DNA from: Promethearchaeota archaeon
GTDB lineage: Archaea > Asgardarchaeota > Lokiarchaeia > Sigynarchaeales > SOKP01
DNA length: 31,302 nucleotides
Reading direction: 5' to 3'
Assembly (NCBI GenBank): GCA_016839905.1
Contig: JAEOTJ010000315.1
Location: 1-31,302 of the forward strand
The stretch's first letter is position 1. Each line of letters starts with the position of its first letter. Under the pieces are notes generated by a model, which worked only from the letters and a program-made list of their open reading frames with translations, did not search any database and was not told the DNA's origin. Shown here piece after piece: positions 3,119 to 16,402 of this stretch. The translations under genes and the position numbers were made by a program.

Positions 3119-4075
3119 ATTACCGAGATATTTGATGTTATTTGCATTGGAGCAGCCTTAGTTGATATGGTTGCGCGTGTTGAGAGGCATCCTTTAGAAG
3201 ATGATGAAGTCTTTGTATCAGATTTAAAATTATTATCCGGAGGAGCGGCGGCTAATTCCGCTTACATATGCGCCAAATTAGGATTAAAAACTGCTTTTAT
3301 AGGAAAATTAGGTTCTGATGATGAATTTTGTAATAAAATAATTAATGATTTTAAAAAGGTTTCTTTAGATATATCATTGATAAAATATTCTAAGGAACAT
3401 GGAACAGGATCTGCATATATCGCTTTAAATAAAGAAGGAGATCGTAGAATTTATGCTCATAGCGGGGCCGCCAATTTACTTTCTAAGGATGATATAAGAG
3501 CCGAGGAAATCTTGAAAACGAAAGTTATTTTTTTAAGTAGTTTAAAAAATCTGGAACCTTTTATTGAGGCTGTTGAAATTGCAACGAATAACAAAATAAC
3601 TACTATTTTAAATCCAGGTATGTTAATAGTTGACCAAGGTTTATCTGAGATAAAAAAATTGCTTGAGAAGTTAGATATTTTAATATTATCATGGCGGGAA
3701 TTTACATCGCTTTTGAAAATTCAAGAATCAAATCTGAATGAAAAATTCATAAAAAAAAAGGCTCAAACACTTTTGAAATTAGGAATTAAACTACTTATTA
3801 TAACAATGGGAAAAAAAGGAGCTTTTTTAGTAAGTAGTGAAAATTCTGAATTAATCCCTTCAAGTAGAATAGATGAAGTGGTTGATACCACGGGGGCGGG
3901 AGATGCGTTTTCTGCAGGCTTTATCTATGGATTTGTTCAAAATTTAAGTTATGAATTTGCAGATCTCATAAAAAATGTAAAAATAGGAAATTTTATAGCA
4001 GGAAGATGTATTCAGAAATTAGGGGCGAGAAATGGAACTCCTAATGTTGAGGAATTAAAAAAGGGTTTAATATAA
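3119..4075 (+). CDS. PfkB/ribokinase-family carbohydrate or nucleoside kinase, apparent ATT start
   Basis: An ATP-dependent kinase of the PfkB fold. The C-terminal signature DTTGAGDAF carries the catalytic aspartate (about residue 262 counted from ATT), and the N-terminal region has the GG dipeptide region LLSGGAAANSA. The first ATG (3167) would remove the first beta strand. The conserved N-terminus DVICIGAALVD is encoded directly upstream in frame, and the frame is open back to a TGA at 3110. No ATG, GTG or TTG lies in that stretch. ATT at 3119, about 9 nt after AGGT, gives a family-like start (MTEIFDVICIG) and a 318-residue protein. It sits 11 bp after purM, so a nucleoside or ribose-linked substrate is plausible, but specificity cannot be read from the sequence. 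Confidence 0.87.
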   Translation: MTEIFDVICIGAALVDMVARVERHPLEDDEVFVSDLKLLSGGAAANSAYICAKLGLKTAFIGKLGSDDEFCNKIINDFKKVSLDISLIKYSKEHGTGSAYIALNKEGDRRIYAHSGAANLLSKDDIRAEEILKTKVIFLSSLKNLEPFIEAVEIATNNKITTILNPGMLIVDQGLSEIKKLLEKLDILILSWREFTSLLKIQESNLNEKFIKKKAQTLLKLGIKLLIITMGKKGAFLVSSENSELIPSSRIDEVVDTTGAGDAFSAGFIYGFVQNLSYEFADLIKNVKIGNFIAGRCIQKLGARNGTPNVEELKKGLI

Positions 4076-13405: not shown

Positions 13406-14779
13406 TTATAAACCCCCAAATTTTTTCATAAGTTTATCAAAACCAGGAGGAAGGCCAGGAAGACCGCCTTTTCCACCTTTTCCACCCTTTTTTCTCATCT
13501 GCAAGATTCTTTTCATTAATTTCTTCATTTGATTATATTGATCTAACATTTTATTTATCATAGCATATGAAGTTCCAGAACCAATAGAAATTCTTTTTTT
13601 ACGTGTCTTTTTTATTATTTGTGGATTATTTTTCTCTTCTTGAGTCATTGAATTAAGTACAACTTCCCATTGTTCAATATTCTTCTCAGCACCATCTTTC
13701 ATGATATCAGGGATGTTTCCAGCACCTAACATGCTAATTATCTGTTTAAATTTACCCACTTTTTTTATTGACTTTAATTGATTATATAAATCATCTAACG
13801 TAAATTTTCCATGCATCATTCGACCTATAGTTTCTGGATCGGGCATTACTTCAGCATCTTGGACTTTTTGAATTAATGACTCTAAGTCTGGAACGCCTAA
13901 TAAAGAGCCAACAAAGCCAGTAGAATCAAATTCTTCAAAATCATCGATTCTTTCTCCAGTTCCTATGAAACGAATGCCCACCTTTGTAGCGGCGCAGGCA
14001 GATAAAGCGCCCCCTCCCTTAGCGGAACCATCTAATTTTGTTACAATAACACTTCCAATATTCGTAGCTTTTGCGAATTCTTCTGCTTGATTATATGCTT
14101 GTTGGCCTAATGTACCGTCGATAACGAGACAAACTTCATTAGGTTTTAATTTTTGCTCAATAATCGCCATTTCTTCCATTAATTCCTTTTCTTCTTTATG
14201 TCTCCCAGCAGTATCTACAATAATTAACTCATTACCTTCAGATATGGCCTTTTTAGTTCCTCTTAAAGCAATTTTTATAGCATTCTTTTCATTAGGATTT
14301 CCATAACACTTCACGCCTAGTTGTTTTGTTAATTGTTCCAATTGTTCATATGCTCCTGGACGCCATGTATCGGTTGTAAGAACGGCAACTTTAAAGCCTT
14401 TACCTTTATAAAAATGTGCTAGTTTTCCAACAGTAGTGGTTTTTCCTGATCCTTGAATTCCAACGAGAAGTATTATATTTTTCTTTCCTGTCTTAATTCT
14501 TATGGGAGCTTTTTTACCACCAATGGTCTTGATTAATTCATCATGAACTAATTTGATTACGAAATCCTTCCTTCTAGATCCTTTTAGGTTTGTATTCATT
14601 GCTTCTTTTTTAATATTTTCTGTCATTTGAAAGACTATTTCTACTTTTACATCTGCAGTAAGCAAGTTTCGCTGGAGTTCTTGAACAAGTGCATTAATGG
14701 CATCTTTATCCACCTTAGGCAAGCGTCTTATCTTCCGAATTGCGTTGTCTATGCCTCTACCAAGATTTTCTAAGACCAT
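13406..14779 (-). CDS. srp54: Signal recognition particle GTPase SRP54
   Basis: The GTPase subunit of the signal recognition particle, which binds signal peptides and SRP RNA and delivers ribosomes to FtsY at the membrane. The order is N domain (1-~95), G domain with P-loop GIQGSGKT (107-114), DTAGRHKEE and [11 protein letters not shown], and a methionine-rich M domain. The M domain includes [12 protein letters not shown] (the RNA-binding SGSG-type loop) and a basic glycine-proline-rich tail ([15 protein letters not shown]). The length of 457 residues is normal. It is transcribed divergently from the aIF5A N-domain ORF across a 173-bp AT-rich gap that must hold both promoters. Confidence 0.97.
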
Positions 14780-14939: not shown

Positions 14940-14945
14940 AGGTGA
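14940..14945 (+). promoter_or_regulatory. Shine-Dalgarno AGGTGA in front of an ATT start
   Basis: AGGTGA, a six-base match to the anti-Shine-Dalgarno complement, lies 7 nt before ATT at 14953. An in-frame TAA at 14947 sits between the two, so translation cannot start earlier. Since no ATG, GTG or TTG follows until well inside the conserved domain, this site decides the start. Confidence 0.6.
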
Positions 14946-14952
14946 ATAACTT

Positions 14953-15144
14953 ATTTCTATTAGAAGAACTGAGATTCAGAAGCTTAAATCTGGTCAGTAT
15001 ATAATGGTGGATGATGAACCATGTTTAATCAAATCTACTGAACGGTCTAAAAGTGGAAAACATGGTCATGCAAAAGTCAGAATTACTTGTGTTGGGGTGT
15101 TTGATAATAATAAAAAAAGTCTCACAATTCCATCAGGTCATTAA
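14953..15144 (+). CDS. Translation factor aIF5A, N-terminal (hypusine) domain, apparent ATT start
   Basis: It encodes 63 residues that match the N-terminal SH3-like domain of aIF5A/eIF5A, the factor that helps ribosomes form difficult peptide bonds and terminate. The sequence reads SIRRTEIQKLKSGQYIMVDD, then the hypusine loop SKSGKHGHAK with K36 as the predicted hypusine or deoxyhypusine site, then VRITCVGVF and LTIPSGH. The next codon is TAA, exactly where a normal aIF5A continues KVEVP into the OB domain. That domain is in a different frame 28 nt downstream. There is no ATG, GTG or TTG before the conserved N-terminus. ATT at 14953, 7 nt after AGGTGA, gives the expected MSIRRTE. It is either half of a split factor or the first exon of an interrupted gene. 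Confidence 0.85.
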   Translation: MSIRRTEIQKLKSGQYIMVDDEPCLIKSTERSKSGKHGHAKVRITCVGVFDNNKKSLTIPSGH

Positions 15145-15145
15145 A

Positions 15146-15162
15146 ATTAACAATTCGTTAAT
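15146..15162 (+). other. Hairpin in the spacer between the two aIF5A halves
   Basis: ATTAAC and GTTAAT are perfect inverted repeats around the 5-base loop AATTC, in the short stretch between the aIF5A half-genes. Outside it, 15128-15135 (TTCCATCA) can pair with 15174-15181 (TGGTGGAA) over 8 bp including one G-U. The combined structure would place the downstream start codon at the edge of a helix. Confidence 0.5.
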
Positions 15163-15172
15163 ATTAGATTAA

Positions 15173-15412
15173 ATGGTGGAAGTGCCCGAAATCATAAAGG
15201 GCAATGCTCAGATTAATTTCATTGAAGATGATACGATAAATATAATGAATCTTGAAACCTACGAATCCTTGGATGTAGATTGGCCTCAGGACGAGAGCTT
15301 AAAGAATAAACTTAAAGATATACAGGCACATCCAGATAGTATATCCTCAACTCAGGTGGAATTTTGGCAATTAGGTGGAAAAACGTTAATTAATAGGGTT
15401 TTTAGTGATTAA
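15173..15412 (+). CDS. Translation factor aIF5A, C-terminal OB-fold domain
   Basis: It encodes 79 residues that correspond to the S1/OB-like C-terminal domain of aIF5A. MVEVPEIIKGNAQINFIEDD matches the KVEVPII...AQV start of that domain, NIMNLETYESLDVDWP matches the MDLETYET strand, and the end VEFWQLGGKTLINRV matches VEYIEAxGxxKITRV. About ten extra residues (DIQAHPDSISSTQ) lie before the last strands. No clear Shine-Dalgarno precedes ATG 15173; AGATTAA is the nearest. Expression probably depends on ribosomes terminating at 15144, or on joining to the N-terminal half at RNA level. Frame 2 upstream carries TAA at 15170, so simple extension into the N-domain is impossible. Confidence 0.85.
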   Translation: MVEVPEIIKGNAQINFIEDDTINIMNLETYESLDVDWPQDESLKNKLKDIQAHPDSISSTQVEFWQLGGKTLINRVFSD

Positions 15413-15502: not shown

Positions 15503-16402
15503 ATGGAGAAAAAAGGAATTGCAATAGCTTCTAGGATGGATTCTAATAGGGCCATTAAATTAGCTAAAGAAGTATATAATTTTTTAGCTCAAAAGAAAAA
15601 AGAAACTGTTTATTTAGAAACCCGCTTAGCTCCTAAAATCGCTCCCTATAACGGTAAGGATCTAATTTCAATGACAGAAAAAGATACTAGTTTTGTCGTT
15701 TGCATCGGAGGTGATGGGAGCCTACTTCGCGTGGCAAATAGCATGCCTCAACAGAATGCTCCCCCGATATTAGGTGTGAATATTGGCTCTATTGGATTTT
15801 TAGATGAGTCAAATGAAAGAACTGTTTTTAAAGATTTGAATAAGGTTTTAGACAATAATTTTAAAATAGAAAATTGTTTAAAAATTACACCCTATATTGT
15901 TAAGAGTAATTCTGAAAGAATTAAACTCAATAATGCTTTAAATGAAGTTTTAATTGTTTCATCTAAAAATTCAAAGGTATTACAAGTCTCAATTAAGATT
16001 AATGGAGTTTTTCTTAATAGGTCTTATTTAGATGGTGTTTTAATAAGTACTCCTATAGGGTCTACGGCATATAATCTTAGTGCAGGAGGGGCCATAATAA
16101 ATCCTAAATTAGAATGCATGCAAATTGCAGCTTTAAATCCATTTGCGCGATCTGGATTAAAACCCATAGTGGTTCCACTAGATTCAGAAATAGAGGTAAA
16201 ATTATTGCGACCACGTTTGAATGCTAAAATTGTAATAGATGGGCAGCAAACAATTAATAAAATTCAACCTAACACTAAAATAATTGTTCATAATGCAAAT
16301 GTTCATACAAAATTTATTCGTTTTAGGGAAAGTTATTATAAGCGCTTAAAGAGAATCTTTCCAATTACTAAAGTACCACTAAGTGATTCCCCTGAAGAAT
16401 AA
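15503..16402 (+). CDS. nadK: NAD kinase
   Basis: Phosphorylates NAD to NADP using ATP or polyphosphate. The GGDGS motif (about residues 69-73) is followed by GVNIGSIGFLDE, the LNEVLIV motif and the GSTAYNLSAGG motif that binds NAD and positions the catalytic region. VIDGQ near the C-terminus completes the family pattern. The protein is about 299 residues, normal for the archaeal enzyme. A TTG at 15500 directly precedes ATG 15503; the ATG with AGGA at 15494-15497 is the better start. Its 3' end overlaps the most upstream possible start of nob1 by 20 nt, so the two are in one operon. Confidence 0.94.
   Translation: MEKKGIAIASRMDSNRAIKLAKEVYNFLAQKKKETVYLETRLAPKIAPYNGKDLISMTEKDTSFVVCIGGDGSLLRVANSMPQQNAPPILGVNIGSIGFLDESNERTVFKDLNKVLDNNFKIENCLKITPYIVKSNSERIKLNNALNEVLIVSSKNSKVLQVSIKINGVFLNRSYLDGVLISTPIGSTAYNLSAGGAIINPKLECMQIAALNPFARSGLKPIVVPLDSEIEVKLLRPRLNAKIVIDGQQTINKIQPNTKIIVHNANVHTKFIRFRESYYKRLKRIFPITKVPLSDSPEE

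Follow-up and report, generated by a model that had tools for sequence, protein, structure and literature searches.

An aIF5A gene in two adjacent open reading frames on a Lokiarchaeia contig: possible gene fission

The aIF5A locus and its orthology

In the window, i.e. the whole stretch of 31,302 nucleotides analysed here, the aIF5A gene occupies positions 14953-15412 as two neighbouring ORFs, seen in the DNA of this one Lokiarchaeia contig only (Table 1). The frame of the N half is open from 14950 to 15144, and the product begins I/SIRRTEIQKLK (as read, ISIRRTEIQKLK...SGKHGHAK...TIPSGH) before the TAA. The C half, MVEVPEI and onwards, lies in a different frame, and the spacer between the two contains a weak hairpin (15146-15151 paired with 15157-15162). 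With 31 nt omitted, the halves join into an uninterrupted reading of 142 aa that has PSGHMVEVP at the junction and is 85 % identical over 99 % to P0001, an intact aIF5A of the Promethearchaeota type. The 63 and 79 residues of the halves make up the full 142 of intact relatives, with nothing lost. The sequence-only reading had described an aIF5A in two ORFs with a TAA right after PSGH, an intact SGKHGHAK loop, an OB part resuming at VEVPEI in another frame 28 nt past the stop, and a family-like reading restored by the removal of 31 nt; all of this was confirmed by the frames, and the split itself is real in the sequence of this contig. The two adjacent ORFs together cover the composite protein, as in archaeal gene fission, and the single chain of the e/aIF5A family is interrupted at the DNA level by a stop and a frame change between residues 63 and 64.

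Table 1. Position of the aIF5A halves, associated signals and adjacent genes in the window
Feature	Position	Strand	Remarks
SRP54	13406-14779	-	divergent upstream neighbour; conserved synteny
Shine-Dalgarno-like AGGTGA	14940-14945	+	before the N half
aIF5A N half	14953-15144	+	hypusine domain minus the final short strand; start position occupied by ATT; TAA at 15142-15144
Spacer	15145-15172	+	28 nt, AT-rich; stops in the N-half frame and in the C-half frame
aIF5A C half	15173-15412	+	MVEVP strand and OB domain; ATG start at the native conserved Met; Shine-Dalgarno sequence absent
NAD kinase	15503-16402	+	downstream neighbour; conserved synteny

The N half matched Pfam IF5A-like_N (PF21485, E = 7.9e-16), and the N-terminal SH3-like domain with the hypusine-site loop is present. 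The C-terminal OB domain of the family was recognized despite a score against Pfam eIF-5a (PF01287) of 17.5 bits, below the cut-off of 24.2: the C half aligned with positions 65-128 of the NCBIfam aIF5A model (E = 5.4e-9) and was 84 % identical to the C half of P0133. Among the matches listed, a precomputed PF01287 match was present in just one of 120 relatives (P0060).

Six neighbouring genes of the 31.3-kb contig matched Candidatus Lokiarchaeota loci at 43-86 % protein identity with the order mostly kept. SRP54 is divergent upstream of aIF5A, and NAD kinase, a PIN protein, FEN1 and CDC48 follow downstream. Of 58 loci (57 Loki loci and one nanoarchaeal), 43 showed this order in full. Part of it was retained in 11 of the remaining 15, in most cases truncated at a contig end or locus border; L020 showed only SRP54 and aIF5A without being cut there, L052, L054 and L055 were rearranged, and the nanoarchaeal locus matched aIF5A alone.

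No acceleration of the gene was detected when pairwise identities of aIF5A and SRP54 were compared (the window ranked 30 of 52). Values of dN to six near relatives were 0.11-0.16; dS was 0.9-2.0 for the N half, whereas for the C half it had reached saturation. In those columns of a 58-row alignment that were conserved to 97 % or more, the window departed once, by a private R55K, and at least one such departure was present in 12 other rows; by eye, in a 35-row alignment, it departed from two invariant columns, R55 and A131. The lack of acceleration and the single conserved-column departure thus give no sign of long decay. Since the neighbourhood is conserved, the rate normal and the gene otherwise intact, it is regarded as the ortholog and not as an old decayed duplicate, with the proviso that a very recent break would look equally conserved.

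Start codon of the N half and position of the break in the fold

The N half has no ATG, GTG or TTG start, and its frame is open only from CTT ATT. Its start gave the longest anti-Shine-Dalgarno run and the lowest duplex energy (-8.5) among 28 hand-picked starts tested against an archaeal anti-Shine-Dalgarno sequence, with the PfkB row of that test placed two bases off (3121 instead of 3119). The C half starts with an ATG preceded by no Shine-Dalgarno sequence; 12 of the 17 other ATG starts tested on the contig paired more weakly than -3.5.

At the corresponding alignment position, the 57 relatives carry ATG (27), TTG (19), ATT (10) or TTT (1), with L050 and L056 re-registered by eye from upstream DNA. 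A GGTG Shine-Dalgarno-like site precedes the ATT in nine of the ten ATT relatives. Seven of them (L011, L045, L050, L051, L054, L055 and L056) contain no in-frame ATG, GTG or TTG upstream; the other three (L023, L024 and L027) have an in-frame TTG or GTG 3-4 codons upstream of the ATT, which could be the start instead. When the ATT label of the ten relatives and the window was placed on a tree of three neighbouring proteins, six changes were needed, at least four of them by well-supported branches. Decay of the N half, as might be suspected from the missing ATG, was therefore rejected, and the recurrent ATT was taken as a feature and not as damage. The AUU starts constitute a separate oddity, better supported than the split. 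A recurrent AUU start of aIF5A recalls bacterial infC, whose start codon is AUU.

Two side observations concern unusual starts. L048 has TTT at the aIF5A start position (around 3001), with none of ATG, GTG, TTG, CTG, ATT, ATA and ATC upstream of Ser2 in the open frame. In the window itself, a gene of the PfkB kinase family (3119-4075) has an apparent ATT start, the Pfam PfkB match beginning at residue 6, upstream of the first ATG; of 30 PfkB loci in relatives, 28 gave a readout, with ATG in 20 and GTG in eight at about that place and ATT in none.

The break was located in an AlphaFold2 model of the intact relative P0001 (the best of five models, with a mean pLDDT of 90.3 against 65.8-86.4 for the other four). 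Strands were modelled at residues 54-60, 64-67 and 70-80, with residues 61-63 as a loop, so the break cuts no strand and the short strand 64-67 goes with the OB half. In this model the break (63/64) falls in the loop that leads into the final short strand of domain 1, a few residues short of the hinge and not exactly at the interdomain linker, where the sequence-only reading had placed it. The domain limits published for Sulfolobus aIF5A are 1-68 and 69-131 (PMC9599864), and the 131-residue chain 8put_E aligned without gaps through the break region; if the Sulfolobus numbering carries over, the break would lie about five residues before the published boundary.

The 31-nt insert and the search for it in relatives

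The 31-nt insert has a GC content of 12.9 %, compared with 14.3 % for the intergenic DNA of the contig, and 31-mers as GC-poor make up 61 % of intergenic DNA and 2.2 % of the NAD kinase gene. Both its ends are clean: a TAA directly follows His63 and an in-frame TAA directly precedes the native Met64. When random 31-nt intergenic-like insertions were simulated, the N product was without any extra residue in 3.4 %, and both ends were clean in a fraction of 8e-5 of 200,000, a figure that serves as a likelihood hint and not as a test since the criterion was chosen after the case had been seen. A copy of other window sequence was not recognized in the insert (best score 15, reached by 59 of 60 shuffles), and duplication of window DNA was rejected as its source for lack of a match above shuffles. 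Scans of the window for Rfam families (gathering thresholds) and tRNAs returned nothing. No break was found in five neighbouring genes compared with relatives, nor in the Pfam-matched proteins among ten others.

A comparison with related genomes had been proposed as a check of the split. The same break was present in none of the 57 related Loki loci, whose DNA was read in one scan, and in none of the 78 Lokiarchaeia genomes with a match (out of 83), the loci and genomes being largely the same assemblies. All 57 loci comprise single ORFs of 140-146 residues, L050 and L056 counted from a shifted ATT start. Uninterrupted aIF5A of Lokiarchaeia (e.g. L001, P0001) thus resembles the window gene in its neighbourhood (L001), its hypusine loop, 84-85 % identity over the joined reading and a start that is often not ATG, and differs from it in being one ORF instead of two. 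Across the phylum, an aIF5A match was obtained in 213 of 227 genomes. The 78 class genomes gave one match each except G033, in which a second match of 44 residues lies on the other strand (5e-6); the five class genomes without a match are compatible with incomplete assemblies. Flagged stops in G021 and G074 proved on reading to be the terminal stop only. In G018 (L104), close to the start of its contig, the N domain of aIF5A contains a TAA, either an edge fault or a real interruption; the gene is not split at the break site of the window.

Several shorter database proteins were also considered. Four others of 79 aa begin at Met64 (P0132, P0149, P0197 and P0227), P0123 is an N half ending in PSGHMCQFY, and in P0224, a C half, SIPEI is preceded by unrelated letters. 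The 79-aa forms may be due to contig ends. In a C-half tree, built from few columns and poorly resolved, the five rows of 79 aa, among them that of the window, were scattered (5 changes, with 500 of 500 shuffles as low). A recurrent split at the same place was considered, but in view of this scatter and the possible contig ends the 79-aa and fragment proteins, examined as protein sequences, were not counted as support. Alternative start calls account for at least some of the numerous proteins of 125 aa: P0134 is identical throughout to the copy in the genome of L001 (L065), which has an upstream TTG start, and the C halves of several 125-aa rows recur in rows of 142 aa. As a separate observation, the N halves P0127 and P0128 leave the family sequence right after SGKHGHA, and P0126 after SGKHGHAKV. 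P0127 and P0138 bear neighbouring locus tags (ACFFDH_24525 and 24520), a C half next to an N half. Judging from these protein sequences, a second interruption point in Loki aIF5A, after SGKHGHA, is possible.

Alternative explanations and the gene fission reading

Gene fission of the single orthologous aIF5A gene, giving two chains, is the leading reading of the locus, to which we assign close to an even chance. The putative production of two polypeptides, already suggested by the sequence-only reading, is still the most direct reading of the DNA, although no relative with readable DNA has the split. Clean insert ends, intergenic-like GC content, the conserved neighbourhood, the intact hypusine loop, the recurrent ATT, the similarly weak Shine-Dalgarno pairing of 12 of the 17 other ATG starts, the absence of acceleration relative to SRP54 and the location of the break in a loop between strands were all counted for fission. 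Counted against it were the uniqueness of the case among relatives, its occurrence in one contig only, the departures at R55 and A131 and the fact that a very recent break would leave conservation just as normal. A C half without a Shine-Dalgarno sequence would moreover need internal initiation or reinitiation, and the cut separates domain 1 from its final strand and does not coincide with the published domain boundary.

The main rival is a strain-level disruption or an assembly fault, a real possibility well short of an even chance: the cell, or most of the population, would have an intact aIF5A, and the contig would represent a recent 31-nt insertion or a wrong consensus. The lack of the break in every relative with readable DNA favours this explanation. 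A survey of archaeal gene fusions and fissions cautions that faulty assembly may lie behind many apparent fissions, metagenomic records being thought to yield spurious ones (PMC11237513), and a review recounts how S. solfataricus aIF1, a gene with a frameshift in its annotation, turned out to be full length once re-sequenced, with a possible sequencing error suggested (PMC8211752). Broken genes do occur in Loki assemblies, as the PfkB-family gene is pseudogene-like in two relatives, with four in-frame TAA codons in L146 (G044) and a frame break plus a stop in L145 (G035). On the other hand, the insert is not a copy of other window sequence, it is a 31-nt unit and not a small indel, both of its ends are clean, and the compared neighbouring genes and Pfam-matched proteins contain no break.

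Removal of the insert by the splicing endonuclease, as a very small intron, is improbable. The junction restored by omitting 31 nt reads PSGHMVEVP or PSGQMVEVP, both of which occur in the family, and relaxed motifs are described as being accepted by some archaeal endonucleases (PMC12397907). The archaeal cbf5 intron likewise interrupts a conserved archaeal gene, but by a bulge-helix-bulge (PMC2738675), and neither such a motif nor evidence of splicing was found for the window aIF5A. As the sequence-only reading had noted for the strict form, no near-strict bulge-helix-bulge (two bulges of 3 nt separated by 4 bp, at cuts that restore the frame) was found when 280 combinations of cut pair and offset that keep the frame were scored. 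The highest total was 8 of 12 pairs, and all 100 shuffled inserts scored at least as high (mean 9.6); this control is lenient, as stops are lost on shuffling and more cut pairs become admissible. The region 15130-15185 folds with an exon-exon helix at z = -2.77, with only 3 of 200 dinucleotide shuffles as low, but when the insert alone was shuffled 29 of 300 folded equally low. Flank helices of at least 8 bp were present in 4 of 53 uninterrupted relatives, and one of the 53 folded more stably than the window when the insert was grafted into it; these 53 distinct rows were those kept by a loose pattern, and five with TGC or TGT in the Val65 column, which look off by one, were left in. The intron was rejected as a candidate on the grounds of the motif search and of these controls.

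A dying second copy accompanied by an intact aIF5A elsewhere in the genome is very unlikely, given the conserved neighbourhood, the absence of accelerated change and the single match in all matching class genomes but G033, with its short second match. Slightly less probable again is the joining of the halves by ribosome bypassing or other recoding: a stop directly after the last codon followed by a small hairpin is reminiscent of phage T4 gene 60, as reviewed (PMC8211752), but the C-frame triplets before the ATG (ATA TTA GAT TAA, by direct reading of 15133-15175) include no GGT or CAT and thus no landing codon equal to a take-off codon, simple readthrough would run into another in-frame TAA two codons past the first stop, and the hairpin has one G-C pair in a fold unexceptional against insert shuffles. 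Splicing and a ribosomal jump, both left open by the sequence-only reading, have gained no support.

Under gene fission, the insert would have ended the first ORF and come to precede the native Met64, creating a two-ORF unit. The hypusine-bearing N half (63 residues) would be started at AUU from the strong Shine-Dalgarno site. The C half (79 residues), comprising the last short strand of domain 1 and the OB domain, would be started separately or by reinitiation, at an ATG lacking a Shine-Dalgarno sequence as in many ATG genes of the contig. The two chains would then work as a two-part aIF5A, in which the MVEVP strand would dock in trans onto the N half. The two clean ORFs, the orthology, the normal conservation and the lack of a splice motif are seen in the sequence; that both chains are expressed, assemble and function is what we infer in this scheme. 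The complete proposal, in which a Lokiarchaeon would produce aIF5A as a pair of proteins encoded by adjacent ORFs, of which the first is started at AUU, with the last strand of domain 1 provided in trans by the OB-domain chain, is put forward tentatively, at somewhat below an even chance.

According to the archaeal survey, fissions are commoner in housekeeping families (PMC11237513). The informational-protein fissions described there also consist of two adjacent ORFs covering a composite protein; IF5A is mentioned zero times in the main text of that survey, and the split described here comes from one unverified contig. Among the matches listed in a search of open-access literature, no title or beginning of an abstract described a split aIF5A. 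In every relative whose DNA was read aIF5A is one ORF, and a two-chain aIF5A would be unusual, if the cell really makes two chains. The hypusine arm and the OB domain contact different parts of the ribosome. Should the split prove to be an artefact, it would be a warning about fission calls in metagenomes; if it is true, a natural two-chain aIF5A would directly test the need for the interdomain tether, in a lineage near the origin of eukaryotes.
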